Positions 25,183 through 48,002 of a DNA stretch of 48,526 nt are shown here, one piece after another. The position numbers and the translations under genes were made by a program. Origin of the DNA: a virus. The number at the start of each line of letters is the position of its first letter. Position 1 is the first letter of the stretch. The notes beneath the pieces are model-generated. The model searched no databases, had not been told where the DNA came from, and saw only the letters and a program-made list of their open reading frames with translations. Where the stretch lies: IMG/VR virus record IMGVR_UViG_3300013372_005370, positions 1 through 48,526 of that record; one strand, written 5' to 3'.

Positions 25183-26589
25183 ATGATCATAGACATAGAA
25201 AATAAAGGTAGTTATTTAAAGGTATCACACTTTAATGAAGAGGGGGAATTAGCTTTTATGGAAGTTCCAATTAAAGAGGAGGATAGATTTATCTGGGAGA
25301 AGTGCAGTCCACATGATCCAAAAAGGGATAAAGAATGGACCAATTGGATGGGGGAAGCAGTAAAAAAAACTAAGACCCAGAAATACAATAAGTATAGAAT
25401 GGCCCAAATACTTATAGATTCGCCTGAAGAATTAACTAAGCCACTTTGGGAATATCAAACACCCAGAAAATATTTTGTCGATATCGAGGTTGAAATAACA
25501 GAGGATATGGCAGCAGCCTTAGATACAGAAAACGCAAGAAATCGGGTTCTTTCTATAGGGATTGCCACTGACAAGAATAAGATAATAGTTCTTGGTCTTG
25601 ATCCTCTTACTTCTGAGCAACAAGCCAGTATTTACAAAAAAATAAATTCATATTTCGCAAGAACTGGAGACGAATGGACATTTAAATACAAGCAGTTTCC
25701 CTCAGAGTACGATATGCTCTACACTTTTTTCAAAGAACTTGGTCCTCGTATGCCTGTTATAACTGGTTGGAACTGGCTAGGCTACGATTGGCCTTATTTA
25801 TTAAATAGAGCTAAAAGAATAGGGATTGATCCTAAGATGATTTCCCCTGGAAATTATTTAATGGGAAAATCACAATTACCTATGCACTTACTTATGATTG
25901 ATTACCTCGATATCTATAAAAAATGGGATCGTGTTATCAAGATTAAAGAGAGCAATAGATTAGACTATGTTGCCGAAAAGGCGGTTGGATTTAAAAAAAT
26001 AGAGTACACAGGGACCCTTAGAGATTTATACCAATCTAATTTCGAAGACTTCATCTATTATAACGCTGTTGACTGTGCCTTGGTACATTATATTGACGCC
26101 AAGCTTAAAACTATGCAAACATTTTTTAAAATCGCTATGATTTCTGGGGTGGAAGTAAATAGAGCACTTTCCCCAGTATGGTCTACAGAAATTATGATGC
26201 TTAGAAAATTTCTTGATAGGAAACAGGTTTTTACCGACGAAAGAAAAGAAGAAGTACATGTTAAATTTGCAGGGGGTTATGTAAAAGAACCAGCTAAAGG
26301 ATTACATGAATGGATAGCTTGCTACGACTTTGCTTCTCTTTATCCGAACACTATGGTTCAATGGGGGATATCACCCGAAGTATATAAAGGTAAAAATCTA
26401 GATACTCCAAAAGAAACATGGACCAAGACAGCATCAGGAGCATATTTTGGAGGGGAGGACGAGAATCCGATATTAAGAACAATTATTAAAGATCTCTATT
26501 CTAAAAGAAGAAAAACAAAAGATCGAATGTTAGAGCTACAGATCGAAATTGACAAGCTAGAAAAGTTATTAGAAAAAGAAAAAAATTAA
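25183..26589 (+). CDS. 43: B-family DNA polymerase, N-terminal half (exonuclease and motif A)
   Basis: A 468-residue protein holding the first half of a gp43-type polymerase. Proofreading exonuclease motifs are intact: YFVDIEVEI (Exo I, Asp/Glu near residue 99), NWLGYDWPYL (Exo II, near 197) and YYNAVDCAL (Exo III, near 292). Polymerase motif A, DFASLYPNT, lies near 382. The frame then ends cleanly after a Lys/Glu-rich helix (LQIEIDKLEKLLEKEKN), which corresponds to the first fingers helix of T4 gp43. Motifs B and C are missing here and are found 14 kb away at 40876-42024. Together the halves total about 850 residues (T4 gp43 is 898). Confidence 0.85.
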   Translation: MIIDIENKGSYLKVSHFNEEGELAFMEVPIKEEDRFIWEKCSPHDPKRDKEWTNWMGEAVKKTKTQKYNKYRMAQILIDSPEELTKPLWEYQTPRKYFVDIEVEITEDMAAALDTENARNRVLSIGIATDKNKIIVLGLDPLTSEQQASIYKKINSYFARTGDEWTFKYKQFPSEYDMLYTFFKELGPRMPVITGWNWLGYDWPYLLNRAKRIGIDPKMISPGNYLMGKSQLPMHLLMIDYLDIYKKWDRVIKIKESNRLDYVAEKAVGFKKIEYTGTLRDLYQSNFEDFIYYNAVDCALVHYIDAKLKTMQTFFKIAMISGVEVNRALSPVWSTEIMMLRKFLDRKQVFTDERKEEVHVKFAGGYVKEPAKGLHEWIACYDFASLYPNTMVQWGISPEVYKGKNLDTPKETWTKTASGAYFGGEDENPILRTIIKDLYSKRRKTKDRMLELQIEIDKLEKLLEKEKN

Positions 26590-26620
26590 CAATTTAAGAC
26601 AACCAATCTCAATGTTTTTT

Positions 26621-26629
26621 GATATATAA
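26621..26629 (+). promoter_or_regulatory. TTTTTTGATATATAA element (candidate phage promoter)
   Basis: It lies between the polymerase N-half and the dUTPase-like gene, 52 bases before the start of the latter, and would serve the nucleotide-metabolism operon (dUTPase-like, nrdB, nrdA, adenylate kinase). Confidence 0.4.
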
Positions 26630-26681
26630 AAAACCCAGAGAGATTTAGTCTAGATATAAACACAGACAAAAAATCACAATT

Positions 26682-27161
26682 ATGGCAAATACAGACAATG
26701 AATGCAAGGATCTTCTTGTTGGAAACGATTACGAAAAATCCACACACCATCTGGAGAAGTTAATGACTCTGCAGAAAAACACTCAGGAAAGGGTTTATGG
26801 TTATAAATTTAATGATCTTACCCTCGGAGAAATTAAAGACTTTTGGCTTTGGAACACCAGAGCTATCGAAGACGAAATATCAGAGGCATACGATGCCTTA
26901 GGTGGAGTATCCAATAATGGCGAGACTTCTATAGGAAACGCAGTATGGAAACCGTGGAAGAGCAACCATAAGAAGGCTTACGAAATGAAAATATCGGATT
27001 TATCCGAGGATGACTTAAAAGAATTAAAAATGGAGTTAGTAGATATTCAACATTTCGTATTCAACATGATGGCTTCAGTTGGCATGACAGCTGAAGAGCT
27101 TTATGATTATTACCTCTCCAAAAACAAGGAAAATATACGGAGACAAGAAAACAATTATTAA
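26682..27161 (+). CDS. Dimeric dUTPase/MazG-like NTP pyrophosphatase
   Basis: A 159-residue all-helical NTP pyrophosphatase. WNTRAIEDEISEAYDAL (about residues 64-80) supplies the E-x-x-E metal-binding helix, and MELVDIQHFVFNMMASVG (about 118-135) the second E-x-x-D helix. The ending YLSKNKENIRRQENNY matches the K-x-x-N-x-x-RQ signature of dimeric dUTPases and MazG-like enzymes. It would hydrolyse dUTP (perhaps dCTP, as T4 gp56 does) to the monophosphate, which keeps uracil out of DNA and feeds thymidylate synthesis. It is upstream of nrdB and nrdA, as expected for a dNTP operon. Confidence 0.75.
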   Translation: MANTDNECKDLLVGNDYEKSTHHLEKLMTLQKNTQERVYGYKFNDLTLGEIKDFWLWNTRAIEDEISEAYDALGGVSNNGETSIGNAVWKPWKSNHKKAYEMKISDLSEDDLKELKMELVDIQHFVFNMMASVGMTAEELYDYYLSKNKENIRRQENNY

Positions 27162-40106: not shown

Positions 40107-40871
40107 ATGAGACTTAGAATCACAAGCACCGCAAATTTAATTACTCTTTTGAGAAGATTAAAAACGGTAGATAGGAGTGTTATCCTAGAATTAAAAAAAG
40201 ATGGAATTTTTTGTAAAGTACATACCCCGGATAAATCTGTAATGAAATATTCTTCGGTTAAATTTGATGATATATTAGAAGGAGAAATAGACTGGAAAAA
40301 AATTAAATACGATCGGATAAAAATAGGGATAATTGATATTACACGTTTAGTAGATTCATTTAAACACTTTAGACCAGAAGAGGAGATTTTTATTGAAATA
40401 GAAACAGATAATTTAGACGAATCCTGCGTTTCTACTGAGATTAAATTGATTTCTGCTTCTCTTAGTATCAGATTAAAATGTGCAGATCTTTCCTTACTTT
40501 CTTATGTCGAGGATAATATATTAGAAATAGTTCATAGTAAAGAAGATGCCCTATTAAGATTCAAAATATACCAATCAGATTTTAGTACAATCTCATCTTT
40601 ATGTGGATTAGAAACAAACTCCGACGAGATTTTATGTTTTAATGTTAAGGACACAAACGTTTATGCTAATGGTAATTCTTTTAATTATAAGCTAAACATA
40701 GGATCTTCTGAAATAATTTTAGAAAATGGCGAAGGCTCACCCAATATTTATAAGAAGGAATTATCATACATGGAGCCAGAAACATGCGAAGTGTATGTTC
40801 ATAATAATAGAATAGTTATGGTATCTGAGCAGTCTTCTACCTCTATAGCTATGGGATTAGTTGAAAAATAA
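40107..40871 (+). CDS. 45: Sliding clamp, gp45-like
   Basis: A 254-residue protein with the alternating beta/helix layout of gp45 (T4 228 residues), including ITSTANLITLLRRLKTVDRSVILELKKDG at the N-terminus and KKELSYMEPETCEVYVHNNRIVMVSEQ and TSIAMGLVEK at the C-terminus, as in a two-domain trimer-forming clamp. It tethers the polymerase to DNA and, in T4, also activates late transcription. The polymerase C-terminal half follows 4 bases later, so the two are coupled. Identity is by fold pattern and context; sequence similarity to gp45 is weak. Confidence 0.7.
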   Translation: MRLRITSTANLITLLRRLKTVDRSVILELKKDGIFCKVHTPDKSVMKYSSVKFDDILEGEIDWKKIKYDRIKIGIIDITRLVDSFKHFRPEEEIFIEIETDNLDESCVSTEIKLISASLSIRLKCADLSLLSYVEDNILEIVHSKEDALLRFKIYQSDFSTISSLCGLETNSDEILCFNVKDTNVYANGNSFNYKLNIGSSEIILENGEGSPNIYKKELSYMEPETCEVYVHNNRIVMVSEQSSTSIAMGLVEK

Positions 40872-40875
40872 AAAC

Positions 40876-42024
40876 ATGACGCAGGAAGAAATCCTAGAAG
40901 TAAAACAACAAATAGAGAAGCTAACCGAGATTAAGAACGAACTTAAAAACGAGGAGCAGGCTATTAAATTAACCATGAATTCTATTTACGGAGCGATTGG
41001 TAACAATTGGTTTGTGTGCTTTAATCCAGATGTTGCTGAATCTGTAACATTACAGGGGCAAGATTTAATAAAATACTCAGAAAAAATTCTCCATAAGTAT
41101 TTTCACGAACATTGGCACTTAGATAAAGAGCTCCACGAAAAATTAGGAATTAAAGTGGTAAAGAAAGTTACTAGACCATTGGTTGTTTACGGAGATACCG
41201 ATTCTAACTATGTGACATTCCAAGAGGTTATAGATTCTTGTGATTATAAAGGTGATGAGAAGGATTTAATTCTCAAGATAAATGAATATAGACTGAATAA
41301 TTATCTTAAAAAGTGCTTTGATATTTACTCACAAAAATGGAATACTGAAAATTACCAGGATTTTGAGCTTGAGTCTTTATCTTTTAACGCTATATTTCTA
41401 GGTAAAAAGAAATATGTTGTTAATCTAGCTTATGATTCAGGAATTCATACGGATCCTTTATCTCAATTAAAATTTACTGGTGTTGAAATGATTAAAGGTG
41501 GTACACCTCCATTTGTGAGAGAGAAGCTTGTTTACCTAACTAAATTTATTTTTTCGAAAGGTAGAAATTTTAATATTCGTGAATTTGTTAAAGAGCTTAA
41601 GAATCTTAAAAAGGAATTCAAGGTGCAAGAGCCTAAAAATATATCAGCATCGGTAAATATTAACAACTATGAGAAATTCATTCTTAATGATACCACAGCT
41701 TTTGAGGTAGCAAAGGCTTGCCCAATTCATGTCAGAGCTTCAGGTTATCATAATTATCTTTTAAACTCGTCTAAATATAAAAGTAAATATTCGCTGATAA
41801 GAAGTTCTGAGAAGGTAAACTATTACTTTGTTAAAACAAAATCTATAATCGATAATAACGTTTTTGCTTACCCACAGGGAACATTTCCTTATGAATTTGC
41901 TCCCCCTATAGATTATGATGAGCAGTTTACCAAAACCATTTTGGATCCTATAAATAGGTTTATTGAAGTTATGGGGTATAATAAAATAAGTCCTAATTTA
42001 TTTATGATTAATGCTCTTTTTTAA
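40876..42024 (+). CDS. 43: B-family DNA polymerase, C-terminal half (motifs B and C)
   Basis: A 382-residue protein holding the second half of a gp43-type polymerase. It starts with a Glu/Lys-rich helix (EEILEVKQQIEKLTEIKNE) corresponding to the second fingers helix, then motif B KLTMNSIYGAIGNNW near residue 30, motif C VYGDTDSNYV near 103 (two catalytic Asp), KKKYVVNLAYDSG and the thumb with KGGTPPFVREKL. The C-terminus, NLFMINALF, looks like a clamp-binding peptide. The ATG at 40876 is 4 bases after the clamp stop; an upstream in-frame TTG at 40861 would overlap the clamp gene. The N-terminal half is at 25183-26589. Confidence 0.85.
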   Translation: MTQEEILEVKQQIEKLTEIKNELKNEEQAIKLTMNSIYGAIGNNWFVCFNPDVAESVTLQGQDLIKYSEKILHKYFHEHWHLDKELHEKLGIKVVKKVTRPLVVYGDTDSNYVTFQEVIDSCDYKGDEKDLILKINEYRLNNYLKKCFDIYSQKWNTENYQDFELESLSFNAIFLGKKKYVVNLAYDSGIHTDPLSQLKFTGVEMIKGGTPPFVREKLVYLTKFIFSKGRNFNIREFVKELKNLKKEFKVQEPKNISASVNINNYEKFILNDTTAFEVAKACPIHVRASGYHNYLLNSSKYKSKYSLIRSSEKVNYYFVKTKSIIDNNVFAYPQGTFPYEFAPPIDYDEQFTKTILDPINRFIEVMGYNKISPNLFMINALF

Positions 42025-42623: not shown

Positions 42624-44081
42624 ATGCCAATAAACAGAGTCCTTGATTTTTTTTCCTATATAAACGAGTCTAATATAGAAACTACAAAAATAGTGGTTTT
42701 AACAGGCAATGTTAAAGGAAGTAAAACTTCAACATCCTTTAAAGAGGAGTGTAAGAAAAGAAAAATAGAATGCTATATAGTAGATGTAAATGATGCTATT
42801 ATAGAAAAATCGTATAATGGCCATTTAATCAATACCGGAGATAATACGATTCAGATTGATCCAAATTCTACTGTGATTGTCCCAAGAAGGGGAGTTTTAG
42901 AAAACTCGTATACTAAACAGATCTTATCATATTTAGAGGATTCACGATATTTTACAGTAAACACTTTGGAATCAATGGAAGTTTGCGAGAATAAATATTT
43001 AACATCCCAGATTTTAGAGGAAAGTGGTTTACCAGTTCCTAAGTGTGCTTTAATTCCGAATGAAGATTTTCTAGATTCTGCGCTAAAACAAATAGGCGGT
43101 AAATTTCCTGTTGTTATGAAGCTACTCTCCGGGACACAAGGGATAGGAGTTTCTATTGTTGATTCATATTCTTCACTAAAATCGGTATACCAAACTATTA
43201 GAAAACTAGATGGAAATAATGAAATTTTAATTCAAGAAAAAATAGATTCAAACTTCGATCTTAGAATTCAGGTTATAATTAAGAAGTTCGATCCATTAAG
43301 ACCTAGTTCTGATAACTGTGTTATTTTAGGATCAATGAAAAGACAGGCAGTTAAAAAAGACTTCAGAACAAATTATTCTTTAGGTGGATCTGTTTCGAAA
43401 TACAACATCTCAAAAGAAATAGAAGAAATCGCATGTAGGGCAGCAAATGCAGTGGGATGTCATTGGTGTGGGGTTGATATTATGATAGATTCAAAAACTA
43501 AAAAACCATACATATTAGAGGTGAATTCGTCACCGGGTACAGAGGGTATATCACAAGCAATAGGAAAGCCTATAGTAAACGATCTTATAGATTACCTAGT
43601 AGAGAAAAGCAATTGGGCTTATTCTAATTTAGAAATAGGATATTTAGAAACAATAGGAATACCCGGGATTGGTGATTTTGTTGGTAAATTTGATACTGGA
43701 AATGGAGCAAAATCTTGCAGTATACACTGTGACGAATCTGAAGAGATTAACGGTAAATTAAAATGGAAGGTAGGTAATAAAAATTTCGTTAGCGAGATCA
43801 TTGGATATTCAGATGCCGAAGTAGGCAGGGATATACAGACTAGACCAATAATAGAGATGGACATAATGTTCCACGGTGTTTTAGTCCCTGGAGTTAAAAT
43901 TTCACCAGTAGACCGGACTGAAAAAAGCACCCCATTCTTAGCAAATAGAGGCTTTATGAGAAGACTTGGATTAATTGTTAATCCATATAAAGCTTTTGTA
44001 GTTTCGCAAGAACCTAAGGGAGGATATCAGGTTGGTGCTTCTAAGGGTAAAGCCCATGCAGGAATTAAATTTGAAAAATAA
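42624..44081 (+). CDS. RimK-like ATP-grasp ligase fused to RimB-like retropepsin protease, with capsid-targeting leader
   Basis: A 485-residue protein. Leader: MPINRVLDFFSYINESNIE (cut after I-N-E). Residues 20-330 form a RimK-type ATP-grasp ligase: CENKYLTSQILEESGLPVPKC near 120, PVVMKLLSGTQGIGV near 165, QEKIDSNFDLRIQVI near 205 and CGVDIMIDSKTKKPYILEVNSSPG near 285. Residues 340-475 match the RimB/ATP-dependent zinc-protease fold: GDFVGKFDTGNGAKSCSIH near 352, ending TPFLANRGFMRRLGLIVNPYKAFVV. RimK adds glutamates to ribosomal protein S6 and RimB-type proteases remove them. The fusion in one injected protein would let the phage modify and restore a host target. Target unknown. Confidence 0.8.
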   Translation: MPINRVLDFFSYINESNIETTKIVVLTGNVKGSKTSTSFKEECKKRKIECYIVDVNDAIIEKSYNGHLINTGDNTIQIDPNSTVIVPRRGVLENSYTKQILSYLEDSRYFTVNTLESMEVCENKYLTSQILEESGLPVPKCALIPNEDFLDSALKQIGGKFPVVMKLLSGTQGIGVSIVDSYSSLKSVYQTIRKLDGNNEILIQEKIDSNFDLRIQVIIKKFDPLRPSSDNCVILGSMKRQAVKKDFRTNYSLGGSVSKYNISKEIEEIACRAANAVGCHWCGVDIMIDSKTKKPYILEVNSSPGTEGISQAIGKPIVNDLIDYLVEKSNWAYSNLEIGYLETIGIPGIGDFVGKFDTGNGAKSCSIHCDESEEINGKLKWKVGNKNFVSEIIGYSDAEVGRDIQTRPIIEMDIMFHGVLVPGVKISPVDRTEKSTPFLANRGFMRRLGLIVNPYKAFVVSQEPKGGYQVGASKGKAHAGIKFEK

Positions 44082-44676: not shown

Positions 44677-46107
44677 ATGGATCTAGTTTCAGCTTTACAA
44701 CAATCTAATACAACTACTGAGAATGGAATGGTAACAAATTCTAGTTCACTTAATAACTGCGTTGATATGTTTTTTAAAATCGGAGCATTTAGATCTGCTA
44801 ATGAATCCGATGTGATTAGAGTTTTTTCCCTTGCATTTTCAGAAGATCCTGTTTCAGCTCTTAGAATTCTTTTCTGGGCTAGAGATATCAGAGGAGGCGC
44901 AGGGGAAAGAAGAGTTTTTAGAATATGCCTGGAATATCTTTCCAAAGCTAATAGAGAAGCTATGGTTAGGAACATGTCTATTATCCCTGAATATGGAAGA
45001 TGGGATGATCTGCTTGTGTTTTTTAGTACTGATCTTCAGGATGAGGCAGCAAAGTTAATTAAGGATGCTCTAAATTCGGAGAATAGTCTCTGTGCTAAAT
45101 GGATGCCCAGAAAGGGAGCTATTGCTAACGATCTCAGAAAGTTCATGAAAATGACACCAAAGGATTATCGTAAGACCCTTGTTTCTCTTACCAAAGTAGT
45201 TGAGCAGAATATGTGTTCTGGTAAATGGGACGGAATTAACTATTCGCAAGTTCCGTCTGTAGCTGCTGCTAGATATCAGACGGCTTTTTATAAAAGGGAT
45301 ACTGAAAGATATCAGGAGTACATTAGACTTTTATCACTCCCTCCAGAATCTAGACCAGAGGGGGTAAAAATAAATGCTCAAGCTGTTTATCCATATGACG
45401 TTCTAAAATCAATCAGGAAAGGTAACGAGGACGTAGCAATCGCACAGTGGAAAGAACTACCTAACTACATGGAGGGAAGCTCGGATATGATTTTACCGGT
45501 GGTTGATGTATCAGGATCTATGTCAACTCCAATTTCTAACGGATCTTCCCTAGAGTGTATGGATGTTGCAATTTCTCTTGGTCTTTATATTTCAGAAAGA
45601 AACGAGGGGCCTTTCCAAAACCACTTTATCACATTTAGTGAAAACCCAAAGCTTCAAAAATTAAAGGGTAATCTTTACGAGAGATATCACCAATTAGAAT
45701 CTTCTGAGTGGGGGATGTCTACTAATTTAGAATCGGTGTTTGATTTAGTTTTGCGTCAGGCTATTAAACATAGCGTGGGTAAAGAATCGATGCCAACTAA
45801 GATATTGATTCTTTCCGATATGGAATTCAACCAGGCCATCCGTGGAGGTGAAAGCGTTTCAGCTATAGAGATGATCAGAGGAAAGTACGAGCAAGCTGGA
45901 TATGATATGCCATCTATTATATTCTGGAACATTCAGAGTAGAAGTGGAGGAAATAATGTTCCGGTTAGATTCGATGAGTCGGGAACTGCTTTAATCTCCG
46001 GATTTTCGCCTTCGATTTTAAAATCAATACTTTCTGGTAATAATATTACTCCGGTTGATATTATGAAAGAGACAATAAACTCGGAGAGATACAAAAACAT
46101 ATCATAA
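44677..46107 (+). CDS. Ro60-like ring protein (TROVE/DUF2828-type helical repeat plus vWA)
   Basis: A 476-residue protein. Residues 1-260 are helical repeats resembling the TROVE ring of Ro60 and the DUF2828/DUF7788 family: FSLAFSEDPVSALRILFWARDIRGGAGERRVFRICLEYL near 50-90, YGRWDDLLVFF near 108, KWMPRKGAIANDLRKFMKMTPKDYRK near 143-168. Residues 265-440 are a von Willebrand A domain with a full MIDAS: DVSGSMS near 277, a Thr near 350 and ILSDMEF near 385. Ro60 proteins bind Y RNAs and misfolded RNAs through the ring. A structured non-coding region and a terminator lie directly downstream. Whether the ring binds RNA here is inferred from the family. Confidence 0.75.
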   Translation: MDLVSALQQSNTTTENGMVTNSSSLNNCVDMFFKIGAFRSANESDVIRVFSLAFSEDPVSALRILFWARDIRGGAGERRVFRICLEYLSKANREAMVRNMSIIPEYGRWDDLLVFFSTDLQDEAAKLIKDALNSENSLCAKWMPRKGAIANDLRKFMKMTPKDYRKTLVSLTKVVEQNMCSGKWDGINYSQVPSVAAARYQTAFYKRDTERYQEYIRLLSLPPESRPEGVKINAQAVYPYDVLKSIRKGNEDVAIAQWKELPNYMEGSSDMILPVVDVSGSMSTPISNGSSLECMDVAISLGLYISERNEGPFQNHFITFSENPKLQKLKGNLYERYHQLESSEWGMSTNLESVFDLVLRQAIKHSVGKESMPTKILILSDMEFNQAIRGGESVSAIEMIRGKYEQAGYDMPSIIFWNIQSRSGGNNVPVRFDESGTALISGFSPSILKSILSGNNITPVDIMKETINSERYKNIS

Positions 46108-46151
46108 TTAATGAAACATTATCTTCAGCTCAGCATATAAAAATAAAAAAA

Positions 46152-46295
46152 GGAATCTTTTCAGCAAACACAAACTCAAATATGACGAAGAAGTGTTGGT
46201 TCTTCGGTTCCAACATAAAAAAGAGATTCCGTTAATTTTAAAGGATTGTTACAGCAAAAAACATTCTATACAACTATAAGAAAAAAAACAATCCT
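46152..46295 (+). ncRNA. Candidate structured RNA(s), possible Y-RNA-like partner of Ro60-like protein
   Basis: The 281 bases between the Ro60-like gene and the next CDS hold no convincing ORF. Element 1: GGAATCTTTT (46152-46161) pairs with AAGAGATTCC (46221-46230), 10 bp with one G-T, closing a 59-base loop that contains CGAAGAA/TTCTTCG (46186-46192 with 46200-46206) and a competing or pseudoknotting TGTTGG/CCAACA (46194-46199 with 46210-46215). Element 2: AGGATTGTT (46242-46250) with AACAATCCT (46287-46295), closing a 36-base A-rich loop. Each 5' strand is followed closely by CAGCAAA. A strong terminator ends the region. End-pairing around a large loop is the shape of Y RNAs. Transcription is not proven. 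Confidence 0.5.
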
Positions 46296-46303
46296 GAAAC
46301 ATT

Positions 46304-46336
46304 AAAAGTCCGAGTGAAAGCTCGGACTTTTTTTTT
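46304..46336 (+). terminator. Strong rho-independent terminator
   Basis: AAAAGTCCGAG (46304-46314) pairs with CTCGGACTTTT (46321-46331) around TGAAAG, followed by T residues to 46336. It ends the Ro60-like gene/non-coding RNA unit. Confidence 0.9.
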
Positions 46337-46388
46337 CCTCCGGGATTATGTTGTATCTTTACCATTCAAACCAATAAAAAGATAAGTT

Positions 46389-46721
46389 ATGGAAGAACAA
46401 AAGAAGATTAATTGGAGCGAAGCTCGTATCAGGGCTTTAGATTTTTTCAGATCATCGATTAAGGTAATTTTTATTCTGGTAGCTGTTGCTTCAGGCTACG
46501 CCATCTCGGAAATACACCACAAATATTCAGAGGGAAATAGTAATAAAGAGGGTGCACCTATGAAGACTAGAAATTCATCGGAAATTTCTGTTGCTATTAA
46601 CGAGAGAAACGAACTAATGATAATAGATCGTAGAAATGGAGAGTATGAGATTTATCAGGATTCTACTGGGCTCCAAATATTTAATCTCTATGCAAATAAA
46701 ATGTATAACGATAACAAATAG
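46389..46721 (+). CDS. Small membrane protein, unknown
   Basis: A 110-residue protein with a charged N-terminus, one transmembrane helix at about residues 24-40 (IKVIFILVAVASGYAI) and a soluble C-terminal part (SSEISVAINERNELMIIDRRNGEYEIYQDSTG). It lies 5 bases before the transglycosylase gene, so a lysis or envelope role (for example antiholin- or spanin-like) is possible. Nothing in the sequence decides this. Confidence 0.55.
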   Translation: MEEQKKINWSEARIRALDFFRSSIKVIFILVAVASGYAISEIHHKYSEGNSNKEGAPMKTRNSSEISVAINERNELMIIDRRNGEYEIYQDSTGLQIFNLYANKMYNDNK

Positions 46722-47474: not shown

Positions 47475-47964
47475 GGGCCCGCTTTGGATTTGACAGGCGG
47501 AGGTAGTTCTTTGAGATGCAGGCAGTCTTAGATGGAAAGACTTTAATTACCTATTAAACAATAAACGCAAACGTTTATAATTCAGAGGATATCATGAGTA
47601 TCCAAACTTCACTTACTAGTTCACTAGTAGCTGAAGAGGTTGAGCTAGCTGTTGCAGTCTAACCAATTGGCGGCAACTGCCAATAATAAAACAAAGTTGC
47701 AAGCTGGCAAGAAAAAAGGTTCGTAGTATTGCCTATTTAACATTGAGTGGAACCTTGCGGATTCGTCCAATACCCATTTAGATCGTCACTATCGATGTTA
47801 GGTAAACCCCCGGTTAATACCGGGGAGTAACCCAGACTGAGCATTAAGTCTGAAAGAAAAAAGAAACGCACCCAAAGTTTGTTGATGTCAAACAATCAAC
47901 TAAGCCTGTGAATGAGTCCAATGGACATTTGATCTGGACGAGGGTTCGACCCCCTCCGGGTCCA
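47475..47964 (+). ncRNA. ssrA: tmRNA (ssrA)
   Basis: The tRNA-like ends pair: GGGCCCG (47475-47481) with CGGGTCC (47957-47963), with G3-U70 as in alanine tRNAs; A47964 is the discriminator and CCA is not encoded. The T arm is GAGGG-TTCGACC-CCCTC near the 3' end, and CTTTGGATTTGACAGG near the 5' end matches the conserved tmRNA start (TCTGGATTCGACGGG in E. coli). ATAAACGCAAAC precedes the tag frame. The tmRNA frees stalled ribosomes with host or phage SmpB and tags the product. At 490 bases it is longer than typical (about 350-400); most of the extra length comes from the long tag frame. Confidence 0.9.
47567..47662 (+). other. tmRNA tag reading frame, 31 residues
   Basis: Resuming at GCA (47567) after ATAAAC, the frame reads ANVYNSEDIM, SIQTSLTSSL, VAEEVELAVAV and stops at TAA (47660-47662). 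Typical tags have about 8-15 residues and end in ALAA or similar; this one ends in LAVAV. TACTAG-TTCA-CTAGTA (47614-47629) can form a hairpin inside the frame. The start of the frame is inferred from the E. coli arrangement. Confidence 0.65.
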
Positions 47965-48002
47965 CTGAATTAATCCCGTTCTCTACTGAATGGAATTTTT
48001 TT

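Follow-up and report, generated by a model that had tools for sequence, protein, structure and literature searches.

The window, by which we mean the whole 48.5-kb virus record analysed here, has T4-like replication genes and carries a gene for a Ro60-fold protein (ro), followed by two end-paired elements and an intrinsic terminator (Table 1). A sequence-only reading of this DNA had described a 281-base gap behind ro, and such a gap separates the end of the ORF at 46107 from the start of the next ORF at 46389. The features assigned to the gap in that reading are in place as well: a 10-bp terminal stem closing a 59-nt loop with an inner hairpin, a second end-paired element, and a strong terminator downstream of both. 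The terminator would end the predicted ro–RNA transcript. A sigma-70 scan returned fewer sites than were found in shuffled sequences, and we therefore claim no promoter.

Table 1. Features of the ro locus in the window
Feature	Position	Strand	Evidence
Ro60-fold protein gene (ro), 476 aa	44677..46107	+	Pfam DUF2828 and DUF7788, PHROG 850, MIDAS
Element 1, Y-RNA-like end-paired RNA, 79 nt	46152..46230	+	Fold, covariance model, conservation in L001-L003
Element 2, Y-RNA-like end-paired RNA, 54 nt	46242..46295	+	Fold, covariance model, conservation in L001-L005
Intrinsic terminator	46304..46336	+	12-bp stem 46304-46331, then T run to ~46336

Sequence comparisons place the 476-aa protein in a family with relatives in 682 of 50,697 phage records. 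It matches PHROG 850, annotated as RNA-binding protein, at E = 9e-154, and a Pfam scan identified DUF7788 (E = 9.5e-53) and DUF2828 (E = 3.9e-30) but not TROVE (PF05731). PDB searches with the sequence or its profile as query yielded no useful match, whereas a fold search succeeded. With the predicted structure (pLDDT 78.5), all Foldseek matches in the PDB with E ≤ 0.001 are Ro60/TROVE entries, including 11 of 11 at E ≤ 1.7e-5. VIA Z-scores are 13–19 for Ro60 structures over about 380–410 residues, as compared to 11.1 for the best other fold. We assigned the protein to the Ro60 fold because this structural match lies well above that to any other fold. The vWA domain contains a complete MIDAS (DxSxS, T, D) formed by D277, S279, S281, T349, and D381, all of which are invariant across 41 relatives. 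The prediction of a TROVE/DUF2828-type ring protein with a full vWA MIDAS is thus borne out for both the fold, a HEAT-repeat ring plus vWA domain, and the MIDAS, with DUF2828/DUF7788 as the Pfam assignment. Judged by its modelled structure, the protein is a Ro60-fold member of the DUF2828/DUF7788 branch; its sequence does not place it in Pfam TROVE. Ro60 proteins in phages were already known (PMC7824862, PMC7765460, PDB 9l5y).

The closing stem of element 1 comprises 10 bp, including one G-U pair, between 46152-46161 and 46221-46230, and the inner hairpin within its loop pairs 46193-46199 with 46210-46216. In element 2, 9 bp between 46242-46250 and 46287-46295 close an open, A-rich loop of 36 nt. 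Both elements share a feature that the earlier reading had missed: the sequence CAGCAA directly follows the 5' strand of the stem, at 46162-46167 in element 1 and, as ACAGCAA, at 46251-46257 in element 2. The DNA behind ro in relatives shows the same design in different letters, with a closing stem of ~7–10 bp, [T/A]CAGCAA, a variable loop, and the 3' strand, usually followed by G. A covariance model of this design (R1) has only two matches in the 48.5-kb window, element 2 (E = 7.6e-9) and element 1 (E = 1.3e-4), with the next hit at E = 0.47. The earlier description, in which one Y-RNA-like transcript is followed by another element, holds as far as its Y-like character is concerned, but the two elements are better viewed as two members of one RNA family.

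Short stems arise readily in A+T-rich intergenic DNA, and the elements could represent chance folding of such a spacer next to a terminator. The strand from 46108 to 46340, terminator included, folds better than 200 of 200 dinucleotide shuffles (z = -3.96); the specificity of the model and compensatory changes in relatives are more telling than folding energy. An alignment of 30 sequences (A3) contains double changes at all seven stem pairs, and 98.1% of its cells pair. Its covariation score of 0.878 (0.214 for shuffles, no higher than 0.122 on sliding) leans in favour of pairing because the stems were picked by complementarity. Two approaches avoid this circular choice of stems. Patterns built on the element alone, ignoring ro and leaving one stem pair free, drew 77 stretches from IMG/VR; the free pair is Watson-Crick in 56/56 unique elements (A-T 32, G-C 10, T-A 8, C-G 6). 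Across 49 ro clusters, a strict scan of ro flanks located 50 elements, every one of them on the strand of ro, versus a mean of 0.47 (maximum 4) in dinucleotide-shuffled flanks. Seventeen of these clusters had been reached via element patterns and 32 were chosen by protein alone; one or more strict elements occur within 700 nt in 22 of the latter. Seven apparent "opposite-strand" elements belong to loci stored with ro on the minus strand (L213, L214, L219, and L222) and hence count as same-strand. The compensatory changes on which the sequence-only reading had staked its proposal are therefore present at every pair. Together with the invariant CAGCAA and the ~100-fold excess over dinucleotide shuffles, this covariation refutes chance folding, to which we assign a negligible probability.

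An additional GTC..GAC hairpin is present in 28 elements. Its loop is complementary to an upstream segment over 4–5 nt, and in several of these elements letters have changed on both sides, suggesting that these elements likely form a pseudoknot subclass. The candidate pseudoknot elements are the P1 elements in tRNA arrays (e.g. L089 5519-5579, L084, L146). With respect to the bulge or internal mismatch in the lower stem of Y RNAs, position 7 of the P1 stem is mostly T-G or a mismatch, beside a T that mostly faces A; both window stems are continuous. A larger variant occurs at L016 5440-5680, and also after ro in L017 and L021, where one element encloses a loop of ~150–230 nt with the shared segments GTCAA.CCACC, AAGACGTTAAA, GGGTTA, and GCCGAG; no Rfam family scores above cut-off at L016 5440-5680.

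Occurrence of the RNA tracks that of close ro homologues. Protein similarity alone was used to retrieve 80 loci, in 69 of which R1 produced a total of 79 matches. Every match is on the ro strand, and 78 lie 21–428 nt after the ro stop. Matches at E ≤ 0.1 were obtained in 7/9 ro loci from bacterial genome assemblies. Whole records and isolates were evaluated at a cut-off of E = 0.05. All 18 whole records with ro were positive, as were Felix O1 and GAP32, and the seven isolates that lack ro (T4, phiKZ, SPO1, RB69, RB43, S-PM2, and K) were all negative. R1 did not match phage G or six IMG/VR records, each with a divergent ro, nor one record with a close homologue (G077). The three contigs that contain relatives of the window topoisomerase were too few for an unbiased test, so we used tRNA-array contigs instead. 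Among 39 tRNA-bearing contigs picked regardless of ro and evaluated at E = 0.01, R1 was positive in 2/3 with a close ro, 0/6 with a weaker ro, and 2/30 without ro, both of the latter weak. Pooled, 22 of 23 close-ro records but only 2 of 37 ro-less records are positive (Fisher p = 4e-13). KVP40, Aeh1, S13, DLP6, FADO, phiM7, the 735-kb LR756501, and GAP32 contributed no sequence to R1 yet matched it; other positives include model sequences or their close kin. Conversely, PHROG 850 is present in 12/14 element-bearing contigs of at least 70 kb, as compared to close matches in 3/39 ro-independent tRNA-array contigs. A search for PF05731 in element-bearing contigs without PHROG 850 found it in 0/11. 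The Ro60 fold, the stem covariation, this tracking of close ro homologues, and the YrlA-type module in sibling elements (see below) support the earlier view of a protein/RNA pair instead of a simple spacer. The recurrence of the same RNA fold beside or near ro in phages of many unrelated hosts points to a widespread, uncatalogued protein–RNA partnership.

The position of the elements relative to ro bears on whether they are separate RNAs. In most Bacteroidetes-like relatives they lie 21–428 nt after ro on the same strand, and in Campylobacter and Listeria phages just ahead of it, an arrangement that would suit untranslated-region hairpins through which Ro regulates or protects its own mRNA. 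Many copies, however, reside in tRNA arrays apart from ro. These non-adjacent copies lie on the tRNA strand, typically 2–9 nt past one tRNA and ~10 nt ahead of the next, and copies in KVP40 and Aeh1 are also located within tRNA clusters. In GAP32, all five copies map to 307–312 kb and ro to 106 kb, ~200 kb away. Small RNAs that mature separately and act in trans would be expected to show such tRNA-gene-like placement far from ro. The presence of several tandem copies in one genome, and of YrlA-type modules within some elements, likewise argues against a cis element, which we consider unlikely. The tRNA-like spacing of many copies between tRNA genes could instead mark a hairpin unrelated to Ro that serves processing or spacing in phage tRNA operons. 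We regard this possibility as more improbable still: in the window and its nearest relatives the elements adjoin ro and do not lie among tRNAs, the tRNA-bearing but ro-less phages T4, phiKZ, SPO1, RB69, S-PM2, and K lack the element, and just two of the 30 ro-less tRNA-array contigs matched, weakly.

We next compared the elements with known Y RNAs. The Y-RNA-like label has no counterpart among the Y-RNA models of Rfam, none of which the window elements match, and no family in Rfam 15 covers the short CAGCAA elements. The window region was scanned at gathering and relaxed thresholds, together with 14 relatives, 12 tRNA-array loci, and 12 isolate loci; among the matches listed, none assigned the short elements to a family. 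Low-E matches on 46253-46339 (STnc430, sroB, and others) derive from the terminator and fall far under gathering. Like YrlA (RF02553), the partner of Rsr/Ro60, the CAGCAA RNAs are end-paired and located near ro, and the tRNA-like module of YrlA is present in several phage siblings that have the same stem and CAGCAA motif. GuuelaD has three tandem elements, the middle one of which surrounds a T-arm/D-arm module matched by the Rfam YrlA model (E = 0.029, regional scan); a phiM7 element likewise encloses a matched module (8.5e-5), and in L149 and L152 the match spans nearly the entire element. Scanning for the stem, CAGCA[A/C], a T-arm, and a D-arm identified 14 candidates at 13 loci, and in the Felix-type phage EC6 such a candidate adjoins short elements with the same stem. 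The YrlA scores of these siblings are 21–35 bits against a gathering cut-off of 69, and the model also weakly matches tRNAs; thus, our argument rests on the co-location of the module with stem and motif, not on the score. In contrast to YrlA, the two RNAs of the window, with lengths of 54 and 79 nt, lack the T-arm/D-arm module and have no Rfam match, and the CAGCAA family is found in tandem and within tRNA arrays. The short window RNAs share the closing stem and motif with YrlA-like RNAs, without the tRNA-like part, and are not YrlA members.

Metazoan Y RNAs (RF00019) resemble the elements by analogy, as their ends form a closing stem with a loop in between and their partner is a Ro60-fold protein. 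The window RNAs are shorter, do not match the Rfam model, and have the CAGCAA strand in place of the metazoan consensus. On the protein side, the fold is shared by the phage protein Ro60 of Thermus phage phiLo (PDB 9l5y; VIA Z 15.4 over 400 residues). The depositors of that structure named it TROVE, in contrast to the DUF2828/DUF7788 match of the window protein in Pfam. In Listeria phage CKA15, the Rsr-like protein CKA15_055 is a PHROG 850 homologue with three element copies directly upstream (25289-25553). Y RNAs were proposed for this phage from abundant non-coding reads, with no sequence or structure named (PMC12282133). The best-transcribed non-coding region with a given position, CKA15 26236-26727 (L230 2483-2974), does not contain the CAGCAA element. 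It encodes a structured, unexplained non-coding RNA ~1.1 kb before ro (PMC12282133). Purified virions yielded 20 peptides of CKA15_055, at 57.1% coverage (PMC12282133, Table 1), a hint that a Ro60-like protein may even accompany the genome on delivery; this is one mass-spectrometry result, and the authors caution about non-structural proteins (PMC12282133).

We consider it probable, at about 80%, that the locus represents a phage Ro60 ribonucleoprotein in which a Ro60-fold ring protein is joined by two minimal Y-like partner RNAs that dock on the ring. Weighing against this reading are the missing Rfam Y-RNA match of the window RNAs, the divergent ro records and G077 without an R1 match, and the well-transcribed CKA15 region that lacks the element. 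Y RNAs dock via their closing stem on the exterior of the Ro ring and gate its cavity, and bacterial Y RNAs can tether Ro to the nuclease PNPase. By analogy with these systems we infer binding, gating, client RNAs, and transcription of the window elements. The ro gene and both RNAs are probably transcribed as a single RNA ending at the terminator. The RNA would dock on the ring's outer face through its closing stem and CAGCAA strand, and Ro would stabilise the RNA. The RNA, in turn, may control access to the ring cavity or tether Ro to a nuclease, as bacterial Y RNAs do, with the loop, be it bare, a hairpin, a pseudoknot, or tRNA-like, serving as the putative effector part. The job of the complex would most likely be the handling of structured or damaged RNAs, including tRNAs, during infection. 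The window members are minimal and have no tRNA-like module. Y RNAs described in bacteria are tRNA mimics. Mycobacteriophage Y RNAs are treated as known, and as tRNA mimics, where PMC12282133 cites them (its reference 60).

Tentatively, and with the odds somewhat against it, the variety of loops could reflect a modular phage Ro60 system. One ring would be served by a set of RNAs with fixed stem and CAGCAA docking, interchangeable loops (bare, hairpin, loop pseudoknot, tRNA-like, or a ~180-nt ornate domain), and tRNA-gene-like spacing. Each loop would recruit a different client or nuclease, perhaps protecting or triaging tRNAs under host attack.

What appears to be new here is the CAGCAA RNA family; phage Ro60 proteins, mycobacteriophage Y RNAs, and the sequence-less suggestion of Y RNAs in CKA15 (PMC12282133) were already known. 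Neither Rfam 15 nor the searchable literature, whose coverage excludes the main reviews, contains a description of this family. It would extend Ro60–RNA pairs to phages of enterobacterial, Vibrio, Aeromonas, Listeria, Staphylococcus, Campylobacter, Bacillus, rhizobial, and mycobacterial hosts, and it reduces the RNA to the likely Ro-docking core of stem and CAGCAA. The covariance model is supplied for finding further members. Two questions, which features of a Y RNA are recognised by Ro60 and what purpose Ro60 serves in phages, become directly testable in lytic phages that can be grown in the laboratory (Felix O1, KVP40, and GuuelaD).

The neighbourhood of ro, with a tmRNA gene 1.1 kb downstream and tRNA arrays in relatives, fits an RNA-centred role. 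The phage-encoded tmRNA is located at 47475-47965, past the terminator, and specifies the tag EEVELAVAV; a tmRNA also lies downstream of ro in L001, L002, L004, and L005. Upstream of ro, at 42624-44081, the window encodes a RimK-like ATP-grasp ligase of 485 aa whose PHROG match is named ribosomal protein S6 glutaminyl transferase. The N-terminal and C-terminal parts of DNA polymerase B are encoded by separate ORFs, at 25183-26589 and 40861-42024, which lie ~14 kb apart.
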